Below are positions 12,277 to 35,203 of a DNA stretch of 64,000 bases, one piece after another; position 1 is the first letter of the stretch; every line of letters begins with the position of its first letter. The DNA comes from Micrococcaceae bacterium Sec5.8 (GTDB taxonomy: Bacteria > Actinomycetota > Actinomycetes > Actinomycetales > Micrococcaceae), in the NCBI GenBank assembly GCA_039636775.1, contig CP143429.1, positions 806,001 through 870,000 on the forward strand, read 5' to 3'. Both the position numbers and the translations under genes were made by a program. The notes under the pieces were generated by a model that was not told the origin of the DNA, made no database searches, and saw only the letters and a list, made by a program, of their open reading frames with translations.

Positions 12277-12392
12277 GCAGTGAATCTTCCGACACGACCG
12301 TGCCCACATGCAAAATACGGTTCTTCCGCTCCTAAACCTATTGGCCAAGTACCATCAATCAATCAAGTAAAAAAATTTGGAATGGGGAAGCT
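12277..12392. promoter_or_regulatory. divergent promoter region, HNH-like gene / ParB-like operon
   Basis: This 116-bp AT-rich gap separates the leftward HNH-like gene from the rightward three-gene operon and must hold both promoters. It includes a run of seven A (about 12369-12375) and a GGGGAAG ribosome site just before the GTG start of the operon. No clear -35/-10 pair or operator palindrome is evident by eye. Confidence 0.4.
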
Positions 12393-16486: not shown

Positions 16487-16569
16487 CTCAGCACCGGTGG
16501 CTCGATGGCTGACACAGCGACGGTCCCCGGCGCCTCGGAATTTGTCAAGGTGAATGAGGCCAGTGGGAG

Positions 16570-17571: not shown

Positions 17572-18008
17572 CAGGGTTTCTTGTACCAGGGCTGCTGCTC
17601 CGCGCTTTCGGAGATATCCTCCAAAAGCAGTCGTGCTTTTTCCATAATCGACAACGCAGCTTCAGTCCGTGCCAGCTTGCGTTCACTCACCTCCAGCTGC
17701 CGGCGTAGACGACCGATTTCCGCCTGTTCAGCAGTGGGCTTGCCTATCTTTTCCCCAGGCTTCTTGCCCTCCAGGATGCCGGCGTCGCGGAGCTTGCGCC
17801 ACTCGGTGATTTGGGATGAATACAGGCCCTCGCGGCGCAGGTATGCCCCGCCTCCGGTGCCGTCGTCGCAGGCCCGTTGATACGCATCCAAGTGCGCCAA
17901 TTTTTGTGCCGGAGTGAACGACCTTCGAGGGGACGGCCCACCGGCGCGGGGGCCAGAATTACTCATGGATCCATCTTCCCGCACCGGGGAAATCGTGGAG
18001 ATAGACAT
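17571..18008 (-). CDS. IS3-family transposase OrfA, copy 1
   Basis: The 145-residue protein contains the HTH that binds the IS ends (RRSFTPAQKLAHLDAYQRAC; SSQITEWRKLRDAGIL) and a C-terminal leucine-zipper-like coiled coil (EIGRLRRQLEVSERKLARTE). A second in-frame ATG at codon 15 (MSNSG) is an alternative start with a possible GGAAG ribosome site. It precedes orfB with a TGATG overlap. It differs from copy 2 by one residue near the C-terminus (Pro versus Ser). Confidence 0.88.
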   Translation of the reverse strand: MSISTISPVREDGSMSNSGPRAGGPSPRRSFTPAQKLAHLDAYQRACDDGTGGGAYLRREGLYSSQITEWRKLRDAGILEGKKPGEKIGKPTAEQAEIGRLRRQLEVSERKLARTEAALSIMEKARLLLEDISESAEQQPWYKKP

Positions 18009-18051
18009 TGGTGATGTTCCTGATTCTCGCCCTACAGATTAAGCGAAGTTG

Positions 18052-18945
18052 CTATGAGCCGCTGGCCTCATCCAACCCTGACGCGTAGGGGAACACGCGC
18101 AGGAGGCTGAAAACGAAGTGCCGTGCATGGTCCGTCTTCATTCCTGTCCTTCCCCCCGCGCTCTCATGGGCAAGCTCGCGGAGGGCTACGTTACCGCCAT
18201 GGCCGTCTCGCGCGTACGCTGTCCACCGGCCGAGAATTCGTTCGGCACCATCGGCTTTGCCGACGTACTGTTTGCCGTTCGTGGAGTCCGTGATGAGGTA
18301 GATTCCCTGGACCTCTGACAGGGCGATACGCCAGTCCGTGTAGCGGGGATCGTCCACCATGTCGCGCAGTTGGTGGTAGGTGAGCAGTACGCCGTCGAAG
18401 CCTGGAAAGTGGACCTTGTCCCGGTCTGCGATCTCCAGCACGGGCATGCGCGCGCCTGTGGCTGAGCCCGCGCTCCGGTGCCAACTGCGGGGGTTGTCCC
18501 ATTCGACTACGAGCCGGTCATTGAGGGGTGCAAGGAATTCTGTCGGGCGCAGGTCGAAGCTTCTGTAGTTCTTGGTGGATGTTGTTGCCACTTCGCCGTG
18601 GTTCTCGTAAGTACCCCAAAGGCGGGAGCGACGCCCGCCGTCGGCAATGAGGATCACCCAGTATCGGGGAGGATTTGCCGGGAAGCGGGGCGGAATGTCT
18701 TGGGTTCTGGTGTAGGCGAGGACCCGCTCTTGGGTCAGATCCTCCGGCCCACGCAACGCATCGGGATCACTCGGCTTGAAGGTGTGGCGGATGACGTGTA
18801 TATCCTCCAGCCGGACCGCTGGGTCATAGTCCGCACCTATCCCGCTAAGCACATGACCCAGCGTAAGGGACGTGCGGGAGGTCGGCTCTTTGGAGAACAT
18901 TGTCTCCGCAGGCACGTAAAGGGCAGGGGATCGCAGATCAGACAC
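18052..18945 (-). pseudogene. GIY-YIG nuclease gene truncated at its 3' end by IS copy 1
   Basis: The 297-codon frame starts at GTG 18945. The N-terminal 200 residues are of unknown type, with PRYWVILIADGGRRSRLWGTY and ADRDKVHFPGFDGVLLTYH. The C-terminal part is a GIY-YIG domain: VQGIYLITDSTNGKQYVGKA, then RILGRWTAYARDGHGGNVALREL. The last 12 residues (PYASGLDEASGS) and the stop lie inside the IS end, so the natural C-terminus is lost. The family carries its catalytic Glu after the YIG region, and the truncation may remove part of the fold. The gene is probably a casualty of the IS insertion, though a shortened protein could still be made. Confidence 0.7.
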
Positions 18946-20231: not shown

Positions 20232-20643
20232 ATGCCGTCCCCCGAAGCAACTGCCCGTCACCGACACGCCGAGAGTCAACACCGTGGTGGTCGAGTCCGG
20301 ACAGGCGGGACTGGCCACCAGTTACTGGCTCGCCCCGGCCGGCGCTGAGCACCAGGTGCTGGAGCGGCGGGATGCTCTGGGTGGGGCGCGGCGGGACCGA
20401 TGGGACAATTTCTACCTGAACACCACCAACTCCTCGTTCATGCTGCCGGAGCTGAAGTACGACACCCCCGAGCGGTGCAGCCGGGCACGGAGGCGATCCG
20501 GATCACGCCGGCGGGCGGCCGGCAACCTCATCGTGGAGACCGTCGGCGGACGCCGGCAGAGGACGTGGTCTTGGCGAACGGCTCCTTCCAGCGCCCGCGC
20601 ATCCCTCCCGTCCGTCGGACTCCCGGGGGTACCGCCGCCGTGA
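20232..20643 (+). pseudogene. N-terminal fragment of a flavin monooxygenase gene
   Basis: Starting MPSPEATARHRHAES, the region continues after a frameshift with VVVESGQAGLATSYWLAPAG, GARRDRWDNFYLNTTNSSFM and, in another frame, EDVVLANGSFQRPRIPP. The intact paralogue at 39721-40986 has LVMGAGQAGLATSYWL, WQDRWESFYLNTPNFSFLL and RNVVLANGAFQVPRIPP at the same places. The FAD-binding GAGQAG has become ESGQAG, and an internal deletion removes about 60 residues. Non-functional. Confidence 0.75.
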
Positions 20644-21092: not shown

Positions 21093-23033
21093 CTACAGTT
21101 CTAGATCGGAAAAGTAGCCAAGCGTTGGATCGGTCAGAGTCCCGATCACCAGACCGCGATCCAGGAACCGGTTGAACTGCTCACAGCTGGTCTCAGGCAA
21201 CAACGCGCAGCCGTGGCAGGCCGCGAGGTTGCACGAGTCCGGACCCTGCCCCTTCTCGCCTGCATCCATGCAAACTGGGTCGGTCGAACACCAACGTGCT
21301 CCGCTCAGCGCCGACGCAAAGACCGACCGCATGTTGTCCGGGCGAGACATCCTGACGAGCCCGCCCATCGTGCCTTCGGAGTCTCCCGCCGCAGTGTAGA
21401 GCAAGAGTCCTGCTGTATGCCGATCAGCTGCATCAGACACATACAACCGCTCCCGAAGGGACGCGGAGCTGTAACCACAGGCGAAGACCAGCTGATTAAT
21501 CAGCAGATGGCCCAACGTATGAAGCAGTACGTACCGTGGGCTGAGCGTGCGTGCATGGAGCCCACGCTGCGACGCGACGTGGCCGTAGTGCGCGGTAATC
21601 TTGTCCGCTCGTGCCTGGACCTCAGGTCGAGCCTCCCACTTCGCGAGGCGATCGCTGTCAATCTCGATATAGATCCCCTCGCCCTTCACGACGTATGCAG
21701 GCAGCCAGTCCTGTTCAGGTGAAAGCGACTGACGACGTAAGAGAGCCTTCCCGACGCTGAGCTTGAGGACGTCATCTCGCACCCGCGTAAAGCCACGGAG
21801 TGCCCTCGTCTCTCGTAAGACATCAACGCTCCTCACACGGTCGAAATGCAACGCCAGGTCGGCATGCATTCCCGGATTGGTTGCCGTCAGGTAATCGTCC
21901 TTCGGCGTTTCGCGGATCGCAACGTATTCGGGATAGCGCCATTCGTCGTCTTCCGTAAGGAGCTCCGTACCGCCTTCCTCGCTCAACTCAGGCTGCGGCC
22001 CTTCGACCCCCAGCAGGTCTCGATAGCCGGCCATGAGTTCTTCATCCGAGATCGGCCTAAATCGTTCCGGCGGAACGTTACGCATTAGCGTCTTACGCAG
22101 TACCGCGACATCAAGATCTTCGCCAAAAGCTGTGTGCAGGGTCCGCATGGTCGCACTCACCGCCGGGTGACGCATCAACTCGTGCATCTCTACACTGACC
22201 GCGCCCTCTTTCCTCGGGAGGTAGATCGATGACTCCACTTTCGGGAAGTAGACGTTCCCGGCACCACGCAGCGCGCCTCGCATAGGCAACCCGCAGACGC
22301 CGTCGAGTTCCGCCAACCACGGCCGTGCGCCAGTGCAGTAGTGCGGGTCATTCTCGTTCAAGGACAGCTGATCGGTCAGGTTTGTGTGCTCTTCACCTTG
22401 GGAGTCTCGCCACGATCCCGTGATGCCGAGAAGTGACCGCTGTTTCCCGCAACCATCAACAACTTTTCCCTTGACAAGGCCACAGGTTACGACCTGACCC
22501 TCGAGGCCCCCACCACCCCGTGATTCAAGGCGCAAGACACCCTTACATTTCGGGTTATGAGCGCGGTGCACCCACTTGTCGAATGGGAAGTCGTCGAGAT
22601 GCCCAGCTATGCAGATGGCGACGAAGGGCACCTGGGACATCCGGGGCTTGTACTGTCTGTCGGCGTGCTCTGAGTCTGGACACTTCTCACCCTGTTGCAT
22701 AGTAAGGGTGCTGAGCTTGAGTCGTTTGCAGTACATACAGAAGCTCCAGCGAGGAAATCGCAGCACCGGCACCGTCAGCTTGACGTTACGTTGATCGCTT
22801 CCTGCGCCTTGGTAGCGATAATCCGGCGGGAGACGGAACTCCTGAACCCGCAGCCGCGCCTCAAGGCGCCAGTCGTGCTCCTGGTACTCCTCCAAAGCGA
22901 GGTTTGGATTACTAGCCGGATACCAGTGATCCAAGCCAGCAGTAATGATCGACGTCCCATTGACCAGGACACTCATCGCCCCCACACCGAACGGCGTAAC
23001 GACCTGCGCCCGCCGCATGCTACCCGTACTCAT
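21093..23033 (-). CDS. drmB: DrmB-like protein (DUF1998, zinc cluster)
   Basis: The 646-residue protein has an N-terminal zinc-ribbon-like segment (FCMYCKRLKL... GEKCPDSEH), a middle of unknown fold, and a C-terminal DUF1998 region: RYVLLHTLGHLLINQLVFAC near residue 510, LLLYTAAGDSEGTMGGLVRM, and the Cys-rich end (WCSTDPVC, DSCNLAACHGC, PETSCEQFN). This order is typical of DrmB, the DUF1998 partner of the DISARM helicase. In DISARM, DrmA and DrmB form a complex that loads on DNA. Its ATG overlaps the drmA-like stop (ATGA at 23030-23033), and it is the last gene of the five-gene operon. Confidence 0.85.
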   Translation of the reverse strand: MSTGSMRRAQVVTPFGVGAMSVLVNGTSIITAGLDHWYPASNPNLALEEYQEHDWRLEARLRVQEFRLPPDYRYQGAGSDQRNVKLTVPVLRFPRWSFCMYCKRLKLSTLTMQQGEKCPDSEHADRQYKPRMSQVPFVAICIAGHLDDFPFDKWVHRAHNPKCKGVLRLESRGGGGLEGQVVTCGLVKGKVVDGCGKQRSLLGITGSWRDSQGEEHTNLTDQLSLNENDPHYCTGARPWLAELDGVCGLPMRGALRGAGNVYFPKVESSIYLPRKEGAVSVEMHELMRHPAVSATMRTLHTAFGEDLDVAVLRKTLMRNVPPERFRPISDEELMAGYRDLLGVEGPQPELSEEGGTELLTEDDEWRYPEYVAIRETPKDDYLTATNPGMHADLALHFDRVRSVDVLRETRALRGFTRVRDDVLKLSVGKALLRRQSLSPEQDWLPAYVVKGEGIYIEIDSDRLAKWEARPEVQARADKITAHYGHVASQRGLHARTLSPRYVLLHTLGHLLINQLVFACGYSSASLRERLYVSDAADRHTAGLLLYTAAGDSEGTMGGLVRMSRPDNMRSVFASALSGARWCSTDPVCMDAGEKGQGPDSCNLAACHGCALLPETSCEQFNRFLDRGLVIGTLTDPTLGYFSDLEL

Positions 23034-26000
23034 AGTTCTCCCTCCTCAGCCTCTGCGTCAACCCGGTTGTAAGCAAGGGAAATCTGCAACCGACACTCAG
23101 CGTCGACGTTGCGCATGCTGGTCGGGACTTCCCAGATCGTCGCCTCGCTGTCGAGGTCCGGCAGGGTTCCGGCATACCGCATCAAACCCTGTTTAGGATC
23201 CCCTTGAATGACGTTGGCCGACCACATAGTTCGCTCCCAGCTCGCCCACTGCCGGGCCCGGCGCTTGGCCATGCGTTTCAGCACCGGCACCTCGTCGGGG
23301 TCGGCGATGGCTGCCCGTGCTTCAAGCAGAGCAATCGCATCTTCATACTCGCGCAGCGGAAACGGGTACGGCGGGAGTAGCGGCGCTACATGGCGGATGT
23401 GTGCCACCGCAGCGGCATGGAGTGCGCGACGCAACACCGGCGCAGCAAACGGCGTCACCGACGTTGGCTCGACCTGCGCGTAGAGCCGTTGATGGTAGGT
23501 GCGAAAGCGCTCATAGTGGCTTCGGTCTCGCGGCTTCGCCGCGCCATAGATAGCAATGACTAGCCCGGGACTGACGTCCGCCCGACGGCCGACTCGACCG
23601 CTGACCTGGATGTACTGTGCCGTGGTCTTGGGCTGGCCAACGATCGTCATGAGTCCGAGCCGGTCGATATCGACACCGACTTCGATGATGTTCGACGCCA
23701 AGCAGATGTCGACACAGTTCGGCGACCCGTAACGAGCCTGGAGTACCTCGATGGCCTTCGGGATCTCATCGCTTCGACGCCGGGAGGTGAGCTCCATCGT
23801 CTCCCGCGGCCAACGCGGTTCGATACCATCCCGGAAGCGCAGTCCGGTCAAGTAGTCAGGTACGTCCGATTCCAGCAGCGACACGGTGTTGCCCAGCTCG
23901 CGCAGGCTGTTGAGGAAGTTGACATTCGTCCAGTAACCATCACGGTCGGGCTCGGGGATCTCGGTACCTGCCTGCAGGGTTGCCGCTGCGACTCGCACTT
24001 GGACAGTCTGCATCGACCCGAGCGAAGAGCTCATGACGCCGAGATAGCGGCGTCCCGGCTCGAGCGAGCCATCGTCGAGCGTGGCCGCCTCAGCGAAAAA
24101 CGAATGCCCTTCTTCCAGCCCATGCGGCGGGAAGAGTGCCACCTGCTGGCGTCCGAAGAGTCCCCGGATTTGATCCTCATACCGCCGAATGGTGGCCGTC
24201 GATGCGATGATCTTGGGCGGCACAGGCTCACCGCCGCGATAATCGGTGCACAGCTCGTCGATCACGGGTTCATATAGACCGACCATCGAGCCAAGCGGTC
24301 CAGAGATCAGATGGAGCTCGTCCTGGATGATGAGGCCAGGCGGAGACACCTGGCGGCTACCGTCATCGCCTAAGCCGAACAGTCGTCTCGACTCTGGGCG
24401 CCAAGCCATCATGGCGAACTTGTCGACGGTACCGATGACGATCGATGGGCGAGTTTCGTAGATGTCGTCGTCGACGACATGCACCGGCAACCCCTTCCGT
24501 CCGCTGAACAGACAGACCGTATCGACACAGCGAAAGATGACCTTCTGCCCGACTTGTTCGTAGCCGATGACGTCCTGACCACTTCGCCCTCTCGGTTTCG
24601 TGCCCATCTGAGCCCCGCACCAAGGACAGCGGAGTAGCAGAAACTCATTCTGTGTCTGCGGGTCGCGCCTCAACTGACTCAGAACCTCGACGGCCCTCTT
24701 CCAGGTATTCGGAGTAGAGGACCCACCAAGCCAAATCCCAATACTAAATCGGGTCTCGCCGAGATCCTCCGCATTCTTCGATCGGATGTCCTCTAGAACG
24801 CAGACCAATGCCGCAGCACGAAGAAACTGTTGTGCTGTTAGCAGCCGCAGCGTGTAGCGCATGAGCGTGTCGGTGCCCGCATCCTCTGGGTTGCGCAGAC
24901 GCCGGGCAAGCAAGCTGATCGCCGACGCACCGAGGTAAGCCTCCGTCTTACCTCCACCAGTCGGAAAGAAGATCAGGTCTACTATTCCGCGGGTGGCACG
25001 CGAAGGCTCCACGAGTTCAGGCAAACTAGCCAGGATGAAGGCGATCTGGAATGGACGCCAGTTGCCCGTCCCCGGCTTCACGACAGGTTCCGGGTGCGGA
25101 CCCTGCACTCGCAGAATTCCACCAGACCCGGCGGCGACTTCGCGAGGCTCGAAGCGCGATCGCACCTGCTGGTAGAGCATGGCTTCGTTCATTAGCCGGA
25201 AGGCGCGGCCAGCGATCGGATTAGAGTTCACGAGATCCCACCCGGCCCGCATCCTAGCCAGCGCCTCACGACAGAGCGTCATGTGCCTCGTCGCGGCTGG
25301 CCGAAAACGGGGCGAAAGTTCCGGGATGAGTCTCTCCTGCTGGGTGATCCACACATCGTAGAGGCGTAGGACTGTTTCAACCTGCACCCGTCCTGCGTCG
25401 CTTCCCTCAGCCAACGACGCCATGCTAACCATGACCGGCGTTCTGTTTCCCGTCTCATCCGTCACGTATATGTTCGGCGTCAAGCTGACGACCTCATATA
25501 CCGGGAGCGGTTCAGCCTGGACCCACGACGTTGCCTCGTGCTTGGCTTCGCCCCACTCCGCAGCACAGCCGTGTCCAATTGCGTAGGTCCGCTTGTTCCT
25601 GTACAGCAGATCTATAGATTGTTCTTCTTCGTCCCGGTCCGGCTGCTCGACGTCGTGGTAGGCCTCGATCGTGAGCCCACCCGCGGCAGCAACCGTGAAG
25701 CCCATCTGGAACAGGGCGCTGGCCGAACCGGTGCCTGACGTTTGATTCAGAACGGCCACTGTCACGAGCCGGAGTTCAGGGTCATGCTCTCCGGGAACCG
25801 GCCGGCTGAAGACCTGCGTAGTCGGAGCAACGCGCGGTCGCTCTTCGCCACTTGCCGTATCAACGTTCTTGAGCCGATTGTTCTCGTTTAGAAGCACGTG
25901 CCCCGGAACCGTGCCAGAGAGTTCGAACGGGCGACGGAGCCACCACTCGCGGGCTTTGGTCACTCCCGGAATGTGCACGCTCAACTTGTCGTAGTAGGCG

Positions 26001-26506
26001 CCCTTCACCGTGACTACCAAGTAGCCGTTTGTCGGCACGCGGCATTTGAACGAGATCGCCATCGCTGACGGCTTGAAGGTGTTGGCGTCGCTGAGGTCGA
26101 AGTCGTCGGAATCTGCCTCATCATGGCGAAGTCGCCCCTTGACCTCAACAGTCGGGGCGTCGAGATGCACCTCGGTACCTCCGAGCCCAGCGACCCAGCT
26201 GAGGTCGGGGTCATCCTGCGAACCCCCGTCGGAAGTCCCGGGAGACGAGATCGCTGTACCTCGCTGTGCTGCGCCGTTGTGTAGCACACCTATGCCATAG
26301 CGACGGAGAGGATCCGAGCGCGTGAGGATCTCCTGGTGCGTCGTCGTCTCGTGAAACTGACCGCGGCTGGCTTCTTGAGATTCGAAGGTCAGCACCCCCG
26401 AGGAGCAGTCGAGTGGCGTCCCGGGGGGCGAGTCCGTGTCCACAGGACCAAATAACTCGCGCCGAACTGCCGCCTCGACGATACCGCGCGCCTCCAGCCC
26501 AGTCAT
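23030..26506 (-). CDS. drmA: DrmA-like SF2 helicase
   Basis: The 1,158-residue protein has a long N-terminal region (about 1-480) of beta-rich unknown fold, then an SF2 helicase core. Walker A is FFPTGGGKTEAYLGAS (near residue 514), motif II LIIQDELHLISGPLGSM (near 729; DELH), motif III ASTATIRRYEDQI. The C-terminal RecA domain has LASNIIEVGVDIDRLG and IQVSGRVGRRADVSPGL (near 950). The length and the pairing with DUF1998 fit DrmA, the single-stranded-DNA-binding helicase of DISARM. It is coupled to genes on both sides by ATGA overlaps. All ATPase motifs look intact. Confidence 0.87.
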   Translation of the reverse strand: MTGLEARGIVEAAVRRELFGPVDTDSPPGTPLDCSSGVLTFESQEASRGQFHETTTHQEILTRSDPLRRYGIGVLHNGAAQRGTAISSPGTSDGGSQDDPDLSWVAGLGGTEVHLDAPTVEVKGRLRHDEADSDDFDLSDANTFKPSAMAISFKCRVPTNGYLVVTVKGAYYDKLSVHIPGVTKAREWWLRRPFELSGTVPGHVLLNENNRLKNVDTASGEERPRVAPTTQVFSRPVPGEHDPELRLVTVAVLNQTSGTGSASALFQMGFTVAAAGGLTIEAYHDVEQPDRDEEEQSIDLLYRNKRTYAIGHGCAAEWGEAKHEATSWVQAEPLPVYEVVSLTPNIYVTDETGNRTPVMVSMASLAEGSDAGRVQVETVLRLYDVWITQQERLIPELSPRFRPAATRHMTLCREALARMRAGWDLVNSNPIAGRAFRLMNEAMLYQQVRSRFEPREVAAGSGGILRVQGPHPEPVVKPGTGNWRPFQIAFILASLPELVEPSRATRGIVDLIFFPTGGGKTEAYLGASAISLLARRLRNPEDAGTDTLMRYTLRLLTAQQFLRAAALVCVLEDIRSKNAEDLGETRFSIGIWLGGSSTPNTWKRAVEVLSQLRRDPQTQNEFLLLRCPWCGAQMGTKPRGRSGQDVIGYEQVGQKVIFRCVDTVCLFSGRKGLPVHVVDDDIYETRPSIVIGTVDKFAMMAWRPESRRLFGLGDDGSRQVSPPGLIIQDELHLISGPLGSMVGLYEPVIDELCTDYRGGEPVPPKIIASTATIRRYEDQIRGLFGRQQVALFPPHGLEEGHSFFAEAATLDDGSLEPGRRYLGVMSSSLGSMQTVQVRVAAATLQAGTEIPEPDRDGYWTNVNFLNSLRELGNTVSLLESDVPDYLTGLRFRDGIEPRWPRETMELTSRRRSDEIPKAIEVLQARYGSPNCVDICLASNIIEVGVDIDRLGLMTIVGQPKTTAQYIQVSGRVGRRADVSPGLVIAIYGAAKPRDRSHYERFRTYHQRLYAQVEPTSVTPFAAPVLRRALHAAAVAHIRHVAPLLPPYPFPLREYEDAIALLEARAAIADPDEVPVLKRMAKRRARQWASWERTMWSANVIQGDPKQGLMRYAGTLPDLDSEATIWEVPTSMRNVDAECRLQISLAYNRVDAEAEEGEL

Positions 26507-28203
26507 ACTGTCCCTCCCAGTGCTGCCCTGAGTGTCCCGGCTTCGATCAAAGCGAACAGCCTGTCGGTCGCTCGCGTCAGGCCAACATACAGCAGCGATT
26601 CGAAGTTCGGCATGGTGTGCCGGTCGATATCGGTAACCACCACCGCCCGTGCCTCGAGTCCTTTGAACGCTTGGATCGTACTGTAGGACAGTTGTCCCGG
26701 TCGCGACGCGCTGCCGTCAGCGGGTCGAAGCACCTGGCGGAGCCAAGTATCTGTTGTCCTACTCGCAGTAGAGTTCCCCTCAAGAGGGCTCAGCACCACG
26801 ATCTCGTTCAGCTCAAACCCATCGTTGCGCAGGGTACGTACAGCGCTCACCAGCTGCTCAGACTGGTCGCTTCCGGACTTGTACGTGAATACGGACGGAT
26901 CGAAGCCGTCGTCCAGCCGCCGGAATCGCTGATAGCCGGGTTGCAGCTTACTGAACGTGTTCACTTGGTAACCAATCCTCGGCAGGTTGCGACAGTTGGT
27001 GATGAGCCGATGCATAGTGAGCTGACCCACACGGCTACGGAGCAGCTCCCGCCCGGCTGGCGCATCGAATATCGCTTGCCGCTCGAAGTCGCCGAAAAGG
27101 AGCAAACGCCCGTCCTCAAGCCCACCGGCTACCATCAGATCAAGCACATCGAGGTAGGGCTCGCGAACGATGTCCTGGATCTCATCGACAACTAAGAAGT
27201 CGCTGACCAGTCCCTCGCCACCTTCCAGGAGCACCTCCATCGCCCGGTCCGGCAGCTCGCGCTCCCAGAAATCTGGCCCTGCTCCCGGGGGCGGCTGCAC
27301 GCCGGCGATCCGCACCAGTTCCTTGTGGAGTGTGCCAACCGTGAGCCCAGGGAGGTCGTCCATATCGCTGACAAGGCGTCGCCCCAGGAACCGGTTGAAA
27401 CACAGCAACCGCCCCGATCGACCCATGCTCACTTCCCTGCGTGCTGCCTCGGTCGCAAGGAGCGTCTTACCCGAGCCTGCCGGACCGGTGAAGAGGACCT
27501 GCCGGTTGTCCTGCATGGCGTCTAGCGCCTCGTACTGCTCCCCGATAAAGCTGATGAGCTCCTGCTCACGTACTCGTCGTCGATCGCCAGCCACTGTCGC
27601 TAGCTCGAAACGGGGGCGCAGGATCGACGCGATCCGGTCAGTCTGGGCTTGGTCCGGACCGACACCTCCATAGGAGAAGTACTGAATTTTCGCATCGAGA
27701 TGCGCGTTGCCCTCCTCGAGCGTTCGTAAGATCGCCGCCGGAACCCCCTTGCGTAGATCCTCGGAGTCCAAAACCTGCCAGTCGTGCCACTCGGTCGATG
27801 AAGGCAGCATTGTCCGCGCGCGGACTTCAGTAAACCAAGCACAGCTCAGTAGCGGAATCGAGCGCAAGTCCAGGTTCTTGGACTCGAGGAAGCCTCGCAG
27901 GCTGTGCATGGCTTCATTCGCCTGCTTGAACGGATGCCGCGCAGTCGGCCGGTCATGACCGAGCTTCCACTGACCGTCATCGAGCACGGTGATGGTCTGG
28001 TGCGACTTCACTTCGATGACGAGCACCCCGTGGTCGGGCACGACGACGACGAAGTCAGCCTCGCCTTCTACTTGGCGGACGTGCTCGGCGATGGCTAGCG
28101 AATGCAACACGATCCAGCCCTCGGTATCTGGGCTCGAGGCAAGGGCTGCATAGAGCGCCTTCTCGCCGGGCGGCGCCGATTCTGGCCGGTAGGACGGCAT
28201 CAT
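26503..28203 (-). CDS. NERD-domain plus UvrD-like helicase fusion
   Basis: The 566-residue product starts MMPSYRPES; ATG 28203 gives an ATGA overlap with the gene before it. Residues about 10-95 are a NERD (nuclease-related) domain, with EADFVVVVPDHGVLVIEVKSH supplying the Asp and E-x-K pattern. Then comes an SF1 helicase core: LFTGPAGSGKTLLATEAARR (near 243), DFLVVDEIQDIVREPYLDVL (DEIQD near 338), LLLFGDFERQAIF, STIQAFKGLEARAVVV and LYVGLTRATDRLFAL (motif VI). In classical DISARM a PLD nuclease (DrmC) is the nuclease-type subunit; here this NERD protein may take that place. That substitution is inference. Confidence 0.85.
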   Translation of the reverse strand: MMPSYRPESAPPGEKALYAALASSPDTEGWIVLHSLAIAEHVRQVEGEADFVVVVPDHGVLVIEVKSHQTITVLDDGQWKLGHDRPTARHPFKQANEAMHSLRGFLESKNLDLRSIPLLSCAWFTEVRARTMLPSSTEWHDWQVLDSEDLRKGVPAAILRTLEEGNAHLDAKIQYFSYGGVGPDQAQTDRIASILRPRFELATVAGDRRRVREQELISFIGEQYEALDAMQDNRQVLFTGPAGSGKTLLATEAARREVSMGRSGRLLCFNRFLGRRLVSDMDDLPGLTVGTLHKELVRIAGVQPPPGAGPDFWERELPDRAMEVLLEGGEGLVSDFLVVDEIQDIVREPYLDVLDLMVAGGLEDGRLLLFGDFERQAIFDAPAGRELLRSRVGQLTMHRLITNCRNLPRIGYQVNTFSKLQPGYQRFRRLDDGFDPSVFTYKSGSDQSEQLVSAVRTLRNDGFELNEIVVLSPLEGNSTASRTTDTWLRQVLRPADGSASRPGQLSYSTIQAFKGLEARAVVVTDIDRHTMPNFESLLYVGLTRATDRLFALIEAGTLRAALGGTV

Positions 28204-29714
28204 TCGAGCCATTGTGCACCCCAATCTTCGAACGGCACCCTCGCATCATGCCGTGGAACAATCACCTGATGTGGCGAGATAGCGAGGACTCGCGTCGCGA
28301 TGATGCCTCGGAACCCGTCTGCCTGAACGTCCAAGCTCAAGTGCCCCTCGCGTTCCAGCTCTGATAGATCCGCCGCAGAGACTGCAACCTCCAACTTTTC
28401 CCGCACGTCGGCGATCGCCTGATGGATCAACTGACGCAGCTTGGTCGCATAACCGAAGGTTGGTTGGATTGGAATCCGTAACCACCTAAGCAGAATCTCG
28501 AAGTCATGATCGCTATTCGGGCGGACGAGGTTCGGCTCTATCCACGCCGGCGCGCGATCGGCCGTGGTCATGCCTAGTTGTCGGAGTTCACTGACAACCG
28601 CCTTTCTGCCACGCAAAGTCAGGAGCCGGGAAAGCTCATCTTTCCAAGCATGCTGAGAAGCACTGACAGATTCTCCCTTGGCGCCAAGCAACCGCAGCGC
28701 GGCTGCATACAACACGCCTTGTTCCGTCTCGCCTTGTCGAAGCAACAGATATGTGCCGGGCCGGACTGCGTGTATGTCGCAATAGACGACTCGTTCCCCG
28801 CTTGGCTGGTTTGGGTCAAGCGCACGGATACGGTCCCCGTCGTCGAGCCAAATCGCCAAGTTACCGCTGAGCAGTACCTTCCATGCGACCACTTCCTCGC
28901 TGCTCGGCTCACGATCAGCCGGCTGCCGATTACCCCACAGGGGCATTGGAAGGAACTCCTCCTCAACCTCAGGCTCCACCGCCTCGGCAGAGGGCTCACC
29001 CAGATCACCTACGGTGAATGTCCGTGATTCAACTCGAATGGCGTTGTCGGCATACGGCGCGATCACGGACTCCGGAAGCGAGCGGTCGCCAATCCATGCA
29101 GGCATAAGGAAACTCACCCCATTCGCGGGCGGCGCCGTTACAAGAGATGACTTAAAAAAGCGCGGCGGCCCCACTGCAAAAGCCTGTTCCACTTGACGCT
29201 TCTCGCGGTGCAAGTCCCCAATCGTCATGACGGAAACGCCTAGGTCTCCAAGCCAAGCTTGAAGTCCTGCCCTCGCGGAACTGCTGGCAGGCACAACAAC
29301 ACAGTCACTCGGTCCTATTTCTTCGATAGAGCTCCACAGGACCGACCCGAGCAACGGTACTGCTTCCAAGGCCGCCTGTGCGGCGGCTGCCAGTTCGTCG
29401 AGTATTTCGTCGTTCGCGGCCGAACCGCGCAGCAGTCTCGCTTGCACCGATACCTGCTCGGCCGCATCGCGGAGACCAGCGTTCAGACTGATCGGCTGTG
29501 GCTGCGTCACTAGCCGCCATCGCATCGCATTGACCGCGCCAGCCAGATCGGTCCAAGGTGCCGGATCCCCCTCACGCATGATCGAAAGCAGTCTACGAGC
29601 AGCTGCGTTGAGGCGCGCTCCTCCGGAATCAGCGACCCGAACTATCTCGACACCGTTTCGCAGGAGTTCCGCACACGAGGCGTAGCGCGCGTTAAGTGCC
29701 TCAATCCGAGTCAT
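28200..29714 (-). CDS. unknown protein of the DrmAB-like operon (504 aa)
   Basis: No family is recognised with certainty. The 504-residue protein is soluble. Blocks include GPSDCVVVPASSSARAGLQA, VSVMTIGDLHREKRQVEQAF, FKSSLVTAPPANGVSFLMP, an acidic linker (EAVEPEVEEEFLPMP) and a C-terminal part with RWLRIPIQPTFGYATKLRQL. The strand-turn patterns suggest a helicase-like or Rossmann-type fold without a readable P-loop. It is joined to its neighbours by ATGA overlaps on both sides. Together with the preceding gene it totals 818 residues, near the size of class 2 DISARM DrmE, so the two might be a split DrmE. This is a guess from size and position. Confidence 0.6.
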   Translation of the reverse strand: MTRIEALNARYASCAELLRNGVEIVRVADSGGARLNAAARRLLSIMREGDPAPWTDLAGAVNAMRWRLVTQPQPISLNAGLRDAAEQVSVQARLLRGSAANDEILDELAAAAQAALEAVPLLGSVLWSSIEEIGPSDCVVVPASSSARAGLQAWLGDLGVSVMTIGDLHREKRQVEQAFAVGPPRFFKSSLVTAPPANGVSFLMPAWIGDRSLPESVIAPYADNAIRVESRTFTVGDLGEPSAEAVEPEVEEEFLPMPLWGNRQPADREPSSEEVVAWKVLLSGNLAIWLDDGDRIRALDPNQPSGERVVYCDIHAVRPGTYLLLRQGETEQGVLYAAALRLLGAKGESVSASQHAWKDELSRLLTLRGRKAVVSELRQLGMTTADRAPAWIEPNLVRPNSDHDFEILLRWLRIPIQPTFGYATKLRQLIHQAIADVREKLEVAVSAADLSELEREGHLSLDVQADGFRGIIATRVLAISPHQVIVPRHDARVPFEDWGAQWLE

Positions 29715-30655
29715 AGCGCAACCGTGAACGCAAGAGCCTCAACACCGATTGGCGGTGTCCAGCCCAGGGTGTCGCGGATCGAGACGGGTTCCCCCCGCGT
29801 GTTTCGTAGCTGCACGATAATTTCGGCAGCCGTCTCATCCGCGACTGATCGATCCAGGACGCAGACCACAATTGGAGCCTCCATCTCAGCCAGATACTTG
29901 ATCGCGCCGCTCCCATCCAACACGACCGCATCAATCTCCTTGGGTAACGGAAGAACCTCAGCGAGGCTAGCTGACGCGTACAGCCGTGTCGACCACGTCG
30001 GGACGCGCTCGTCCTTCGGGAGCAAGAGGGCTGCGATTTCATCCGGCGCAGACACGGTACAGCCGTCCTGTGCAAGGTACGCGCCGAAATCGTCATTCAG
30101 CCACTCGAGCGTTCCCACGATAGCCAGGTCCGTAGCTGGGCTCGCAAGACGCTGATCCCAGGTCTCCCGCAATCCCGCAAGATCGCAGACACTTCCTGGA
30201 ACGGGCCGTCGTCCTCGCAAGGGCTCCGTAAGTTCAGGCAACACGGCGAGTGCACGAATCGACTCCGCCTGCCAATATGTACCGCCCACGTGAACGCGTG
30301 GACGCGCAACGTTGTCGTCAAATTCGTAAAAGTAGTCACTCAGAACCGCGCTCGAAGTGACGATCCTCACCGGAGTTCCACGCTCGAGGCTCCGCATGAG
30401 TTCGATCGGCGGCCGAATCTCAGGGGCAGGTCGCGTCATGGCCCATCCACAGCCAATTAGAGCGGCCGCGAAATCTCTCCTCGGTACCGAAACGACTACA
30501 ACGAGTTGACGTCCTTCGTCTCGCTGAGCGGACCGCGCAAGTCGAGCGCCAAGAGCAACCAGTGATCCGATCCAAGATGCTCGATGTGCCGGCCCGTCAA
30601 TGGCCTCTGCTAGGGCAAGCAACGCAGGCCCCGCACCCGGACACGCAGAAACCAA
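29711..30655 (-). CDS. unknown protein, first gene of the DrmAB-like operon (314 aa)
   Basis: The gene begins at a TTG (30655) with a strong GAAAGGGGG ribosome site seven bases upstream, so this start is favoured although it is not ATG. Readable blocks are RQLVVVVSVPRRDFAAALIG, TPVRIVTSSAVLSDYFYEFD, LAIVGTLEWLNDDFGAYLAQ and APIVVCVLDRSVADETAAEI. The alternation of beta strands and helices suggests an alpha/beta fold, but no catalytic motif is evident. It overlaps the next gene by ATGA. Co-translation with the helicases implies a stoichiometric partner. Function unknown. Confidence 0.6.
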   Translation of the reverse strand: MVSACPGAGPALLALAEAIDGPAHRASWIGSLVALGARLARSAQRDEGRQLVVVVSVPRRDFAAALIGCGWAMTRPAPEIRPPIELMRSLERGTPVRIVTSSAVLSDYFYEFDDNVARPRVHVGGTYWQAESIRALAVLPELTEPLRGRRPVPGSVCDLAGLRETWDQRLASPATDLAIVGTLEWLNDDFGAYLAQDGCTVSAPDEIAALLLPKDERVPTWSTRLYASASLAEVLPLPKEIDAVVLDGSGAIKYLAEMEAPIVVCVLDRSVADETAAEIIVQLRNTRGEPVSIRDTLGWTPPIGVEALAFTVAL

Positions 30656-30980
30656 TGTGGACCCCCTTTCTCGTAACTCATCACAGCCCTCTCTTCAGGA
30701 TCATAGGGCGGCACGCCGACATCGCCTTTAAGACGCCGAACGCTAATTCGTCGTCCACCAAATGCGTCCCAACACCGCGATATGGCCGACCCCAGGCCGC
30801 AGCATCCGCGGCAGATTCCTAGCGCCTAGCCAGAGCACGGCGGTATGGAGGGCCAAGCAAGTCTTTCGTCGCGGGAGAAGATGAAGCCATCGGCAGTCCC
30901 CCGAGGGAGCGCCGGCGAATGTACCCTAGATCGGAGCTAACGAAGTCGAGCGTGCTAGGCCGGCATAAGGAACATGACGA
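30656..30980. other. gap between endonuclease gene and DrmAB-like operon
   Basis: The 325-bp stretch lies between the NaeI-like gene and the five-gene operon. A 46-codon minus-strand open piece (GRPYRGVGTHLVDDELAFG, ending at a TGA near 30690) is visible, but it has no start with a ribosome site and matches nothing I know. The promoter of the five-gene operon is expected here. The ribosome site of its first gene is clear. Confidence 0.4.
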
Positions 30981-31907
30981 TTACGCTTCCTCTTTGTCTT
31001 TGGGTTCATCAATCCGCGGAGCTGGCTCCCGGCTCGCCTCATCGGGACGGGCCTGCCGCCACCTACGCCCACCGATAAGCGCCCCAGTGTTGTCTTCGGA
31101 AGGTACAACACGGACCGAGACGTACTCGTCCTGGCGCGGCACCGGAACACCGAGATCTTCAGCCAGCTGACGGTGATAGAGCCCACTGAGGATTAGATAA
31201 CCCTCTGGCGCCAAGACGGAGCGGGAACCGCCGTTATAGCGCACCCGCTTCTGGTGATCTAGCTGACGGCTCACGGTCGCGACGATGTTGCGGTGGACAA
31301 TCATGTCTACGGCCGCCCTGAATAGACGATGCGTGCGCTGCGTGCCAAAGCGACTATCAAAAATGTCGTCCACGACGTCACGCGGAAGCTGGAGCAACAC
31401 GTTCGGGCGCAGTGGCGCATCCTTCCAGAGCCATTGAACAGAGTCCCTCCCCAAGACATTGAGTTGACTCTTCTTGTCCCGGTTGGTTGACTCCTTACGA
31501 ACCTCTGCGGTAATGCGAATGAGGCCAAGGGACCAGACCGACTCCGCATCGCTACCCGTCACGACGAGGGCAAGCTCACCGAAAACCTCTGGGGGCAGCA
31601 TCCAACTTCCCGACGTCTGACTCCACTTGGCGTCAACCTGGTGTCCGGAAATCCGGTAGTCCGTTGCATCTCCGCCCTCAAACTCGAACTCGCGCTGAGC
31701 GTTGATCTCCATGAGCGTGCCGAAATGGGTTTTCTCTGTCTTCATCAATTGATCCCAGCGATACCGACCCGTCTCTTGGCCGTTGTAGATCATGTCGTAG
31801 GTACGGCGAATTACGGATGCCCACCGCACACCGTCGGGGTCAAGCCGCATTAGCTCAGCGGCAACCTCATCGAGGGCAGGGTCCGATTTGGGGGCGAATA
31901 TATCCAT
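30981..31907 (-). CDS. NaeI-family type II restriction endonuclease
   Basis: The 308-residue protein aligns along its length with NaeI by memory of that sequence: LDPDGVRWASVIRRTYDMIY, WDQLMKTEKTHFGTLMEIN, ATDYRISGHQVDAKWSQTSG, SWMLPPEVFGELALVV, RSVLAPEGYLILSG and LGVPVPRQDEYVSVRVVP. The catalytic Glu (EIN), Asp (TDY), Asp and Lys (VDAK) correspond to NaeI E70, D86, D95 and K97. Where NaeI has Leu43, this protein has Ile. NaeI is a type IIE enzyme cutting GCCGGC; the same target is plausible but unproven. A GTG at 31919 is an alternative start; ATG 31907 has GGGTGAG seven bases upstream. The matching 5mC methyltransferase lies about 600 bp upstream. Confidence 0.9.
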   Translation of the reverse strand: MDIFAPKSDPALDEVAAELMRLDPDGVRWASVIRRTYDMIYNGQETGRYRWDQLMKTEKTHFGTLMEINAQREFEFEGGDATDYRISGHQVDAKWSQTSGSWMLPPEVFGELALVVTGSDAESVWSLGLIRITAEVRKESTNRDKKSQLNVLGRDSVQWLWKDAPLRPNVLLQLPRDVVDDIFDSRFGTQRTHRLFRAAVDMIVHRNIVATVSRQLDHQKRVRYNGGSRSVLAPEGYLILSGLYHRQLAEDLGVPVPRQDEYVSVRVVPSEDNTGALIGGRRWRQARPDEASREPAPRIDEPKDKEEA

Positions 31908-32101
31908 AGAGTGGCTCACCCGCTGAGCCTACATATAAGACTGGCTTCATCTACTTGCCGACACGTCCAAATGCAATTACGATTCCGCCGGTATTGGGGG
32001 AATTTGAACACGCACCCACTCACTGACCTCTGGCCACTCGTCAGGGCACGCACCAGGGACGTTGCACCACTTCCTGCTTGGGAACGACGCACAACCGCCT
32101 A

Positions 32102-32497
32102 CTTCGCTTGCGACTCATAGGAAGTGCGGAGTTGTCCACGCTCGAAAGGGTGATTGACACCAACATACAGGACACCGACGACACTCGGGCTAAACTCCCC
32201 GAAGAACTGCAAGCGGAGTAGAGAGCCTAGCCAGACTGGAACTGGACGTACCGGTCACCTATTCACGATCGTCGGCTGCCTCCCGACGGGCTGCACGCAC
32301 CTGGACCTCGCTTCCCCGACATCTGCCCATTCGTTTCGAAGGGACTGGGCAAAGTGTCTTGCGAGCATCCGGGAAACCTCATCAATGGAACACAAGGCCG
32401 GGCTAAATATGTGCTTTGGCGCCGACTCCACCGGGCTGGTCAGCGTCTGACGTGCAGGCATGAAGCCCAGAATGTCTCAGCGCTTGCACAGGTGTAG
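32102..32497 (+). pseudogene. possible decayed small gene between endonuclease and methyltransferase
   Basis: The 31908-32509 gap contains one plus-strand frame that reads like protein. It gives STLERVIDTNIQDTDDTRAK up to a stop at 32219, a second stop at 32228, then RFPDICPFVSKGLGKVSCEH, PGNLINGTQGRAKYVLWRRL and a Cys/His tail ending at 32495. No start codon or ribosome site is evident. The paired Cys/His could be a small zinc module. It may be a broken gene or chance, and I do not recognise a family. Confidence 0.25.
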
Positions 32498-32509
32498 ACG
32501 CGATAATCA

Positions 32510-33517
32510 CTAGCTGACAGCTAGCAGCTCGCGCTCCACTGACTCCTCGAAGTTCATGGTGTCAACCGGCCGAACGCCAAGTGCCCTGGCAATCGACGTA
32601 CCGATAGCAGCGGCAACCGGCGGAGGAAAGGCGTTGCCAATCTGGCGGTAGACCGATGTCTTTTTTCCTGAGAACTGCCAGTCCAAGGGGAATCCTTGGA
32701 CACGGGCGACCATCTCATTGGTAAGACGAGGCACGTGCTCCAGAGGAGTGTCGGGGCCAGGCACCTCATTGGCTATGCCCTTACCGTCGACACCCAGCTG
32801 GAGCCATGCGGCCTTCGCTCGCGTAGGGCCCAAGTCAGCCCCTCCGTGTTTTTTGGATCCGCCGACAACTGTTGGGGCAATACCATCAGCCTTTCGTGCC
32901 CATGCTGCTGCTCCGGGCCAGTTGCGGCTCTCCATCATCGGCAACAGCACCTCGCCAACAGTCGGGGGAGCGCCGTGGGCAGACGGCCATTCAAAATTCT
33001 TCCCGTACCGCTTTTTTACGGCAACTAGGATAAATCGCGGACGAAGCTGGGGGACACCAAACTCACTGGAGTAGAACAACTTCCAGTCGGATTGGTACCC
33101 AAGAGTCTCTAAGGCGTCGAGGATCGACTGCCGGTAGGTGGAGAATCGTGCCGAGGCCAATCCTTTGACGTTCTCCAACATCACGGCAGAAGGATTGGCT
33201 TCCTTCACGAGACGGAGAGCCTCCGGAAATAGATCCCTCTCGTCATCGGCCCCTAGCTGCTTACCAGCAATGCTGAAAGGCGGGCACGGTACTCCTCCGG
33301 CCAGTAGGTCAATGCCTCTGTAGTCCTTGCCGCTGACTTCTCGAACGTCACCGTGGTGAACGTCCCAGGACGGTCGATTGAGCCGCAGAGTCGCAGCCGC
33401 GTCCGTGTCGATCTCGACGGCCAACGAATGGCCGAAGCCGGCTTGTTCCAGCCCTACTGACTGGCCTCCTGCCCCGGCGCAGATTTCGAGCACAGTGAGT
33501 TTGGAGGGGGTTGTCAT
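32510..33517 (-). CDS. DNA (cytosine-5) methyltransferase
   Basis: The 335-residue C5 methyltransferase shows motif I LEICAGAGGQSVGLEQAGF, motif IV GGVPCPPFS with catalytic C78, motif VI MLENVKGL, motif VIII PQLRPRFILV and motif X YRQIGNAFPPPVAAAI. The target-recognition region is compact (about 190-260), as in type II enzymes. The open frame runs 56 codons further upstream, but those codons lie in the spacer and inside IS copy 2, so a start at 33517 (MTTPSKLTVLE) or 33529 is chosen. It should protect the chromosome from the NaeI-like enzyme, and by position it could also serve as the DrmMII-type methylase of the DrmAB-like operon. Confidence 0.88.
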   Translation of the reverse strand: MTTPSKLTVLEICAGAGGQSVGLEQAGFGHSLAVEIDTDAAATLRLNRPSWDVHHGDVREVSGKDYRGIDLLAGGVPCPPFSIAGKQLGADDERDLFPEALRLVKEANPSAVMLENVKGLASARFSTYRQSILDALETLGYQSDWKLFYSSEFGVPQLRPRFILVAVKKRYGKNFEWPSAHGAPPTVGEVLLPMMESRNWPGAAAWARKADGIAPTVVGGSKKHGGADLGPTRAKAAWLQLGVDGKGIANEVPGPDTPLEHVPRLTNEMVARVQGFPLDWQFSGKKTSVYRQIGNAFPPPVAAAIGTSIARALGVRPVDTMNFEESVERELLAVS

Positions 33518-33730
33518 GTCGTCCATCATCTCATTTCGGCTTGTTGGGTCTTGCCACTGAGACCCTGTGTCTCCAACTTTGCCGCGCACCTCCGACAAGA
33601 ACGGACGGCATGGATCGCGAGCTGAGTGTCCGGCGATGGTCGGCAAGGCCCTACGCGTCAGGGTTGGATGAGGCCAGCGGCTCATAGCAACTTCGCTTAA
33701 TCTGTAGGGCGAGAATCAGGAACATCACCA

Positions 33731-34168
33731 ATGTCTATCTCCACGATTTCCCCGGTGCGGGAAGATGGATCCATGAGTAATTCTGGCCCCCGCGCCGGTG
33801 GGCCGTCCCCTCGAAGGTCGTTCACTCCGGCACAAAAATTGGCGCACTTGGATGCGTATCAACGGGCCTGCGACGACGGCACCGGAGGCGGGGCATACCT
33901 GCGCCGCGAGGGCCTGTATTCATCCCAAATCACCGAGTGGCGCAAGCTCCGCGACGCCGGCATCCTGGAGGGCAAGAAGCCTGGGGAAAAGATCGGCAAG
34001 CCCACTGCTGAACAGGCGGAAATCGGTCGTCTACGCCGGCAGCTGGAGGTGAGTGAACGCAAGCTGGCACGGACTGAAGCTGCGTTGTCGATTATGGAAA
34101 AAGCACGACTGCTTTTGGAGGATATCTCCGAAAGCGCGGAGCAGCAGTCCTGGTACAAGAAACCCTGA
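33731..34168 (+). CDS. IS3-family transposase OrfA, copy 2
   Basis: This 145-residue twin of the protein at 17571-18008 has an N-terminal HTH (SSQITEWRKLRDAGIL) and a C-terminal leucine-zipper-like coiled coil. It ends EQQSWYKKP instead of EQQPWYKKP. An alternative start is the ATG at 33773. The stop overlaps the orfB start as TGATG. Confidence 0.88.
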   Translation: MSISTISPVREDGSMSNSGPRAGGPSPRRSFTPAQKLAHLDAYQRACDDGTGGGAYLRREGLYSSQITEWRKLRDAGILEGKKPGEKIGKPTAEQAEIGRLRRQLEVSERKLARTEAALSIMEKARLLLEDISESAEQQSWYKKP

Positions 34169-35169
34169 TGTCTGCCTACACCGCCCTCACCGGCGCGGAC
34201 ATCCCAACCAGGGAAGCAGCCGTGATTGCCGGGGTCCCCAGGGCCACAGCGACCCGCAAAGTCCGAATCCCGGCGGAAGACCCGCGGCCCGCCCCGGCAC
34301 CGGCAAATAAGCTCTCAGCGGCGGAGCGCGCTCACATCCTGGCGACCGTGAACTCGAAGGATTTCATCGATCTGCCGCCGGTGCAGATTTATGCCCGGCT
34401 CCTGGATGAAGGCATCTATTTGTGCTCAATCTCCACGTTCTACCGCGTTCTGGAGGAGAACCGGCAGGTCAAGGAACGCCGCCGACAGGCACGCCACCCG
34501 GCCCGGGCCGTCCCGGAGCTGGTCGCGACCGGCCCTGGGCAAGTTTTTTCGTGGGACATCACCAAGCTCGCCGGCCCGATCAAGGGCAAATACTACGATT
34601 GCTACGTCATGATCGACATCTATTCCCGCTACATTGTCGGCGCCTACGTCCATGCCCACGAGTCCGGGGAACTGGCCGTGGAAATGATGAAGGAGATCTT
34701 CGGTATCCACGGCATCCCGCAGATCGTCCACGCCGACCGTGGCACCTCCATGACGTCCAAAACAGTCGCCGCGCTGCTCTCGGATCTGGAGATCACCCGG
34801 TCCCATTCCCGTCCGCGCGTCAGCAATGATAATCCGTACAGTGAGGCTTGGTTCAAATCGCTGAAGTTCGCCCCCATATTCCCCGAACGCTTCGGGTCCC
34901 TGCCTGACGCGAGGGCCTTCATGGGCTCCTTCGTCGACGGGTATAACCACACCCATTGCCACACCGGAATCGGCCTCAACACACCGGCAGACGTGCACTA
35001 CGGACTGGCCGCCGGCAAAGCCCTTGAACGCGCCAGAACCCTTGCCGCCGCACGGGCAAAAACACCCGAACGATTCACCACCAACAACGACCCCAAGATC
35101 ATCACCATCCCCGACAGCGCCTGGATCAACAAACCAGCCGAGAAAACCGACACCAAAGCCGCAGCCTAA
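34168..35169 (+). CDS. IS3-family transposase OrfB (DDE integrase), copy 2
   Basis: The 333-residue protein is identical to the copy 1 OrfB except at two positions (Asn near 98, Ser near the C-terminus). The catalytic D130, D190 and E226 are conserved, so this copy should also be active. Transcription runs outward from the bracketed defence genes toward the lipase gene. Confidence 0.9.
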   Translation: MSAYTALTGADIPTREAAVIAGVPRATATRKVRIPAEDPRPAPAPANKLSAAERAHILATVNSKDFIDLPPVQIYARLLDEGIYLCSISTFYRVLEENRQVKERRRQARHPARAVPELVATGPGQVFSWDITKLAGPIKGKYYDCYVMIDIYSRYIVGAYVHAHESGELAVEMMKEIFGIHGIPQIVHADRGTSMTSKTVAALLSDLEITRSHSRPRVSNDNPYSEAWFKSLKFAPIFPERFGSLPDARAFMGSFVDGYNHTHCHTGIGLNTPADVHYGLAAGKALERARTLAAARAKTPERFTTNNDPKIITIPDSAWINKPAEKTDTKAAA

Positions 35170-35203
35170 CTCCCACTGGCCTCATTCACCTTGACAAATT
35201 CCG

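Follow-up and report, generated by a model that had tools for sequence, protein, structure and literature searches.

A DISARM-like core with an apparently split DrmE and a NERD-UvrD gene beside a NaeI-type restriction-modification pair in Micrococcaceae bacterium Sec5.8: the case for a shared methylation mark

Micrococcaceae bacterium Sec5.8 encodes a gene core resembling class 2 DISARM (defence island system associated with restriction-modification), located next to a restriction-modification (R-M) pair of the NaeI type. Both lie in the stretch of DNA analysed here, hereafter the window, which comprises 64,000 nucleotides (positions 806,001 to 870,000 of CP143429.1) and is part of a single 3.87-Mb contig; coordinates are those of the window. 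The core consists of an apparently split DrmE (DrmEn and DrmEc), a protein with a NERD nuclease domain and a UvrD-type helicase (NERD-UvrD) encoded between DrmE and DrmA, DrmA itself, and DrmB, with no DrmC found. On balance, we think it somewhat probable that this core uses the adjacent M.NaeI-type methylase as its self mark. The methylase of the R-M pair would thereby provide for a core without a DISARM methylase of its own, so that host DNA carrying the mark would be ignored by both NaeI and the DrmAB complex. Unmarked phage DNA would instead be cleaved by NaeI, loaded by DrmAB, or both, with the split DrmE acting too, and NERD-UvrD would be the likely nuclease degrading the loaded DNA. The reading of the mark by DrmAB is proposed by analogy with Serratia DISARM, and both the cutting by NERD and the anti-phage action are predictions.

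According to the accessible text of PMC9142583, Serratia DrmAB is autoinhibited, and DNA bearing a 5' overhang activates it; unmethylated DNA stimulates its ATPase, and DNA with 5-methylcytosine (5mC) does so less. The same text reports that DISARM also restricts phage without the methylase's sites, the presence of the methylase notwithstanding. The discrimination between self and non-self by DISARM is unsettled, and cores with either a dedicated or an R-M methylase form a natural series for asking whether DrmAB reads a sequence mark, any 5mC, or none.

The initial annotation had described seven leftward genes, and all seven open reading frames (ORFs) are present and correctly placed on the minus strand between 21093 and 33685, with profile matches behind those that it named (Table 1). 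In the order of transcription, they encode a C5-cytosine methyltransferase (m5C MTase), NaeI, DrmEn, DrmEc, NERD-UvrD, DrmA, and DrmB. The core genes overlap as called, by 4, 25, 4, and 4 bases from DrmEn to DrmB, whereas about 590 bases separate the MTase from NaeI and about 325 bases separate NaeI from DrmEn. Thus, instead of a uniform seven-gene operon, we distinguish a coupled five-gene core from the R-M pair standing apart from it. For comparison, 34 core loci (L numbers; G numbers denote genomes) were gathered: 30 from a search of actinomycetotal genome contigs with a DrmEc alignment, the window, L044 and L046 from a class sample of 394 genomes of Actinomycetes, and L048, the plasmid pROB02 of Rhodococcus opacus B4. 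In one of them, L016, an insertion sequence (IS)-like gene interrupts DrmA.

DrmB matches the family model NF038324 with an expect value (E) of 1.5e-124 and 417 bits, over the cut-off of 240. DrmA scores 824 bits against NF038325, under the equivalog cut-off of 950, and matches the PADLOC DrmA model (E 9e-202) and the structure of Serratia DrmA (7s9v, E 7.7e-135). Its GGGKT motif is kept in 38/38 aligned rows and its DELH motif in 37-38 of the 38, outgroups included. V1134 of the window protein, kept in 36/36 rows, is a candidate equivalent of Val1296; this comparison was dropped because a phmmer search with the C-terminal stretch of DrmA gave no match. Regarding DrmC, the phospholipase D (PLD) motif (HxK-x4-D followed by a G/S-x-N box) is found in no frame of the window, and PADLOC reports no DrmC among the nine window proteins scanned. 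The motif is equally absent from the 33 other carrier loci; PLD-domain proteins are encoded somewhere in all 30 carrier genomes searched. The proposals of a DISARM-like DrmA and DrmB and of a missing PLD-type DrmC are therefore borne out.

The two proteins left as unknown by the initial annotation probably represent a split DrmE, so that its own caveat, that the unknowns might belong to a described system, applies as far as DrmE is concerned. DrmEc, whose family comprises 416 scored matches, very probably corresponds to the C-terminal portion of DrmE, because its relatives match DrmE models. The Pfam model DrmE_C (PF24957) is matched by 14 of 24 family members, with a best E of 1.2e-5, the window's own protein being one of the 24 but not among the 14. 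A profile of the 24 members, with the homologue from Nostoc left out, retrieves this Nostoc plasmid protein among 146 ORFs (E 4.5e-33); it is encoded directly before DrmA and passes the DrmE_C cut-off (28.2 vs 27). In addition, one unspecified member of an alignment of 23 (A4, Nostoc protein included) matches the NCBIfam model DrmE_fam at 3.6e-18, and residues 2-458 of the distant homologue L044 align to positions 301-789 of the 838 in that model, under its cut-off. DrmEn would probably be the first third of DrmE: both proteins sum up to 818 residues, which fits the length of the model, and the DrmEn family profile finds an ORF upstream of the Nostoc DrmEc, past a transposase gene (E 4.9e-7). 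Several results weigh against a split DrmE. Neither window protein has a direct DrmE match in profile searches, PADLOC matches none of the 24 DrmEc family members, the DrmEn family has no convincing profile match, and no DrmEn is seen in L044. The family found at the DrmE position in Lactobacillus was also compared by hhalign with DrmEc and DrmEn, and was set aside after weak values (E 0.049 and 0.22, respectively).

The evidence for a shared mark comes mainly from the distribution of methylases. Another m5C MTase lies in the flank of 20 loci; 15 of these enzymes are of one dedicated type (DrmMII), usually encoded just upstream of DrmEn, and the remaining five are others (L011, L020, L032, L044, and L046). 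When the window MTase was sought in 33 carrier genomes, 13 were positive at 316-897 bits, namely the window's own genome (G000) and 12 with enzymes 54-84% identical, the other 20 giving at most 138 bits. Both sets are complementary: an M.NaeI-type MTase is present in the genome of all 13 cores without another flank m5C MTase, and of 0/20 cores with one (Fisher p 1.7e-9). None of the 13 genomes has the dedicated type anywhere (at most 104 bits, against 671 and 694 for two positive controls), the best score in the window's own genome being 48 bits. On a DrmA tree of 32 rows, 6/6 independent pairs are opposite (p 0.031). In 11/13 cases, the M.NaeI-type gene shares the contig of the core and is close to it: nine times inside the window or the fetched flank, once 3 kb beyond DrmB (L015), and once about 5.6 kb beyond DrmB, after the HNH-ParB-SNF2-NOV set described below (L030). 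Moreover, plasmid pROB02 carries the core, Vsr, and NaeI, with an M.NaeI-type MTase beside NaeI that is 58% identical to that of the window. Together, the complementarity and this plasmid support one shared mark, as the initial annotation had suggested.

A number of considerations count against this reading. The Fisher test ignores kinship, and the independent contrasts are about six. The complementarity is post hoc, since some of the data used for testing the hypothesis had already suggested it. The contrast between NaeI and the dedicated MTase, with a naive p of 3.8e-5, has a median p of 0.125 on the tree and is not significant. The M.NaeI-type gene is away from the core in 2/13 cases (L014 and L025). 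The genomes are mostly drafts, several flanks end at contig ends, and the comparison is confined to m5C MTases. Incompatibility, or the chance make-up of islands, could also account for part of the pattern.

The R-M pair agrees with what the initial annotation had read. NaeI matches PF09126 (E 3.6e-100, 335 bits) and the structure 1ev7 (E 2.5e-74), with the E/D/D-x-K residues aligned, which we take to be Glu70, Asp86, Asp95, and Lys97; all four are kept in 6/6 rows. Position 43 (numbering by counting) is Leu in 1ev7, a residue with a role in NaeI, and Ile here. The type IIE enzyme that gave the family its name binds two sites before it cleaves, at GCCGGC. The MTase matches PF00145 (E 1.5e-68); it also matches the PADLOC DrmMII models (best 1.1e-36), but the DruM and MTase_II models do so far better, and it is 26-27% identical to the dedicated DrmMII type. 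Relatives at E 1e-60 or better occur in 27/266 genomes of the class sample, its own included. Among relatives of the pair, Vsr is a frequent companion; the window has no match for it.

The strongest competing explanation is that the NaeI pair and a self-sufficient core are simply neighbours in a defence island and work separately, the core needing no methylase or another mark; we regard it as rather unlikely, albeit deserving serious consideration. It would account for the gaps around the NaeI gene, and for how loosely NaeI is associated with the core. NaeI appears in the fetched flank of 9/34 cores (the window, L009, L013, L023, L025 as a fragment, L035, L037, L038, and L048), in differing placements and orientations. 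On the DrmA tree, the NaeI label requires eight changes for nine rows, no more clustered than in shuffles (mean 8.3), so that NaeI has been gained or lost repeatedly. Only 3/26 NaeI genomes among the 394 sampled have it near DISARM, the other 23 being judged on flanks of about 9.5 kb, some of them cut by contig ends. The NaeI methylase-endonuclease pair is thus a swappable module beside the core, and not a fixed part of one operon as initially proposed. The initial annotation had also stated that its case would suffer if DrmAB-NERD operons rarely accompanied the NaeI pair; this proved half true, with NaeI itself a minority partner.

What mere island neighbourhood does not predict is the methylase complementarity, nor that NaeI should prefer one kind of DISARM locus. 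Over-cut-off DrmB matches occur in 58/394 genomes, at 68 places (counted by hand). Nine of these places have a NERD-UvrD match at most about 6 kb upstream (G000, G055, G061, G119, G130, G267, G282, G376, and G403), as assigned by coordinates, with G148 (8 kb) and G171 (downstream, helicase part only) left uncounted. NaeI lies within 15 kb of three of these nine (G000, G267, and G403) versus 0/59 of the others (p 0.0017); because no more than three candidates were scored in each genome of this survey, some of the 59 may have NERD neighbours that escaped it and the nine may be an undercount, which again tells against the shared mark. NaeI is also present in 8/30 carrier genomes compared with 26/394 Actinomycetes (p 0.0012). 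A more distant DISARM (L124/L165, from G267) combines a NERD-UvrD match of its own with an m5C MTase, Vsr, and a gene of the NaeI family, which suggests that the association arose more than once. A different DISARM-like operon, on a Tsukamurella plasmid (L053), has a RelA/SpoT-domain protein and a UvrD helicase before DrmA; its DrmB is followed by another helicase and a methylase.

As the initial annotation had claimed, the gene before DrmA encodes a NERD-UvrD helicase, with profile matches to PF08378 (NERD) and UvrD_C_2. Its suggestion that this protein fills the slot of DrmC is more conjectural, since NERD-UvrD sits between DrmEc and DrmA and not after DrmB. The conservation of NERD beside DrmAB does not by itself establish that DNA degradation belongs to the pathway, and NERD-UvrD might be an independent defence gene that has moved into a DISARM operon without acting with it. 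This we consider improbable. Such a move would fit L018 and L022, which retain DrmE-DrmA-DrmB genes without NERD-UvrD (L018 being cut before DrmB), as well as Lactiplantibacillus pMK02 and Nostoc HK-01 plasmid1, in which no gene separates DrmA from the DrmE-position gene, and the spread of NERD-UvrD profile matches over 82/394 genomes (some of the helicase part only), nine of which lie directly upstream of DrmB. It does not fit the constant place between DrmEc and DrmA in 31/33 informative loci (L036 is uninformative, its contig ending too early), nor the overlapping frames, nor the conservation of the NERD residues E55, D57, E71, and K73 and of the helicase Walker A G252-K253 in 31/31 rows. 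Furthermore, a match upstream of DrmA is found in four more distant DISARM loci (G119, G267, G282, and G376).

Table 1. Features of the window, the seven leftward genes first.
Feature	Coordinates	Strand	Basis
DrmB-like (DUF1998/MZB), 646 aa	21093..23033	-	NF038324, MZB PF09369
DrmA-like superfamily 2 helicase, 1158 aa, Walker A + B	23030..26506	-	NF038325, PADLOC DrmA, 7s9v
NERD nuclease domain + UvrD-type superfamily 1 helicase, 573 aa	26503..28224	-	PF08378, UvrD_C_2
DrmEc, very probable C-terminal part of split DrmE, 504 aa	28200..29714	-	via relatives matching PF24957 DrmE_C
DrmEn, probable N-terminal part of split DrmE, 314 aa	29711..30655	-	position, overlap, length sum
NaeI-type (type IIE) restriction endonuclease, 312 aa	30981..31919	-	PF09126, 1ev7
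C5-cytosine methyltransferase, M.NaeI-partner type	32510..33685 (start probably 33517-33586)	-	PF00145
HNH-like protein (label by eye)	11578..12348	-	ORF; homologues beside ParB-SNF2 in L023, L026, L029, L030
ParB-like protein (label by eye), 470 aa	12393..13805	+	ORF; with SNF2 in L023, L026, L029, L030
SNF2-type helicase, 593 aa	13809..15590	+	PF00176
NOV_C-domain protein, 299 aa	15587..16486	+	PF13020
IS copy 1, 1555 bp, two ORFs (16570-17571, 17571-18008)	16536..18090	-	
IS copy 2, in the opposite orientation to copy 1	33649..35203	+	

A further gene set in the window, encoding HNH-, ParB-, SNF2-, and NOV-type proteins, has the appearance of a separate restriction-type system. A conceivable identity for its ParB-SNF2-NOV part would be VSPR. 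Its SNF2 gene has a weak BrxHI/BrxHII match (E 9.6e-5), ranking under DpdE, ZorD, and DrmD. HNH, ParB, and SNF2 genes recur in the flanks of four cores (L023, L026, L029, and L030), three of them with NOV, and in 4/26 fetched NaeI loci (L104, L107, L123, and L125; 24 of the 26 came from the survey), and a relative of the window MTase (at least 46% identity) is present in all eight. The module recurs with M.NaeI-type MTases, often with Vsr, and with or without DISARM. In L029, the genes for ParB, SNF2, NOV, HNH, Vsr, the MTase, and DrmEn to DrmB are all co-directional. In the window, an IS copy separates the module from the core, which runs the opposite way. The two window IS copies differ at 5 positions and lack matching 3-bp flanks, whereas six other genomic copies all have them as target duplications. 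AGG, on the inner side of the right copy, is however the reverse complement of CCT, on the outer side of the left copy. Such agreement would arise by chance in 1 of 64 cases and suggests that the 15.6-kb segment between the copies was inverted. The other pair of flanks, GAA and CCC, does not match, so that a later deletion or a different history is needed besides the inversion. Undoing the inversion would produce a co-directional array like that of L029, with the core running on from HNH-ParB-SNF2-NOV. A simple composite transposon was rejected, as the outer 3-bp flanks differ (CCT and CCC). An empty site was sought in 19 genomes, the window's own included; in the nearest relative (G432), the one inspected closely, the matches to the two sides are about 80 kb apart.

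A GIY-YIG-like ORF (label by eye; 18052-18945) enters the IS with its 3' end and is probably truncated for this reason, and 20284-20643 resembles part of a flavin monooxygenase-like gene (label by eye; 39721-40986), with 76% identity over about 200 bases. A broken amino-acid-permease-like frame (label by eye; 7471-8482) is 83% identical to another copy, which the genome carries some 14 kb upstream; a similar permease-like gene borders the DISARM core of Arthrobacter nitrophenolicus (L015, 2-1153), perhaps a common insertion spot. That the IS insertions and the inversion left a decaying island of non-functional defence genes, as the two IS copies, the GIY-YIG-like ORF, and the gene fragments at 19-21 kb might indicate, is likewise improbable, because the seven ORFs are full length compared with their families, the examined catalytic motifs are conserved, and close relatives exist at 93-95% identity.

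Beyond the use of one neighbour's mark by this core, a broader and more tentative idea, possible but to which we would not yet commit, is that M.NaeI-type methylases act as hubs, where one cytosine mark would license interchangeable effectors: NaeI, the HNH-ParB-SNF2-NOV module with Vsr, and the split-DrmE/NERD-UvrD DISARM core. Cores joining such a hub would lose their own methylase, and the three effectors of the window would once have stood as one co-directional array, later broken up by an IS-mediated inversion. If true, defence systems would share an epigenetic signal across system boundaries, a single mark licensing several weapons.

The hybrid system put forward by the initial annotation stands in part, namely in its DISARM-like character, the lack of DrmC, the NERD helicase, the NaeI-type enzyme, and the idea of a shared mark; its unknown proteins are probably the two parts of a divided DrmE, and the NaeI pair comes and goes beside the core. 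Literature matches for DISARM with NaeI, NERD, DrmE, UvrD, and shared or trans methylation do not describe this arrangement in the titles and abstract openings among the matches listed, supplementary files and most subscription journals lying outside the search. The accessible text of a survey of the YprA family mentions many uncharacterised DISARM-like classes, its passage on NERD concerning TALON (PMC12458937), and that of a domain review places NERD in Mokosh type I and Nhi-like systems (PMC10952713).

Among known systems, Druantia type III and ARMADA resemble the locus in having a YprA-family helicase and, within the operon or close to it, a methylase. Their helicase typically carries the OB-CON-DUF1998 module in one chain (PMC12458937, accessible text), whereas the locus divides it between DrmA and DrmB. 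The helicase of the locus is of the DISARM type, and the one MTase among the proteins scanned belongs to the C5-cytosine enzymes and is not PglX-like. TALON shares a NERD-type PD-(D/E)xK nuclease together with a YprA-family helicase (same text), but it is defined by NERD, an ARMADA-like YprA helicase, TPR-CSD, and TBP, and here the helicase is a DISARM-type DrmA with a separate DrmB, and no TPR, CSD, or TBP match is found among the nine proteins. The likeness to the type IIE NaeI R-M system lies in the PF09126 and 1ev7 homology, the aligned catalytic residues, and the partner m5C methylase; the differences are the lack of a Vsr match in the window, the linkage to a DISARM core, and Ile in place of Leu43. 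The closest relative is class 2, or type II, DISARM, which according to the accessible text of PMC9252829 comprises for PADLOC DrmE, DrmA, DrmB, DrmC, and DrmMII. The locus shares with it separate overlapping genes for DrmA and DrmB, homology to DrmE through relatives, and a nearby m5C methylase. It departs from it in the apparently split DrmE, the NERD-UvrD between DrmE and DrmA, the absence of DrmC (PADLOC finding neither DrmE nor DrmC in the nine proteins), and an M.NaeI-partner methylase in place of a dedicated DrmMII. With DrmA and DrmB present, two of the five components missing, and DrmE suggested through relatives, we do not file the core as type II, even though it would work most like it, and it may represent a form of DISARM that the published type II definition would miss.

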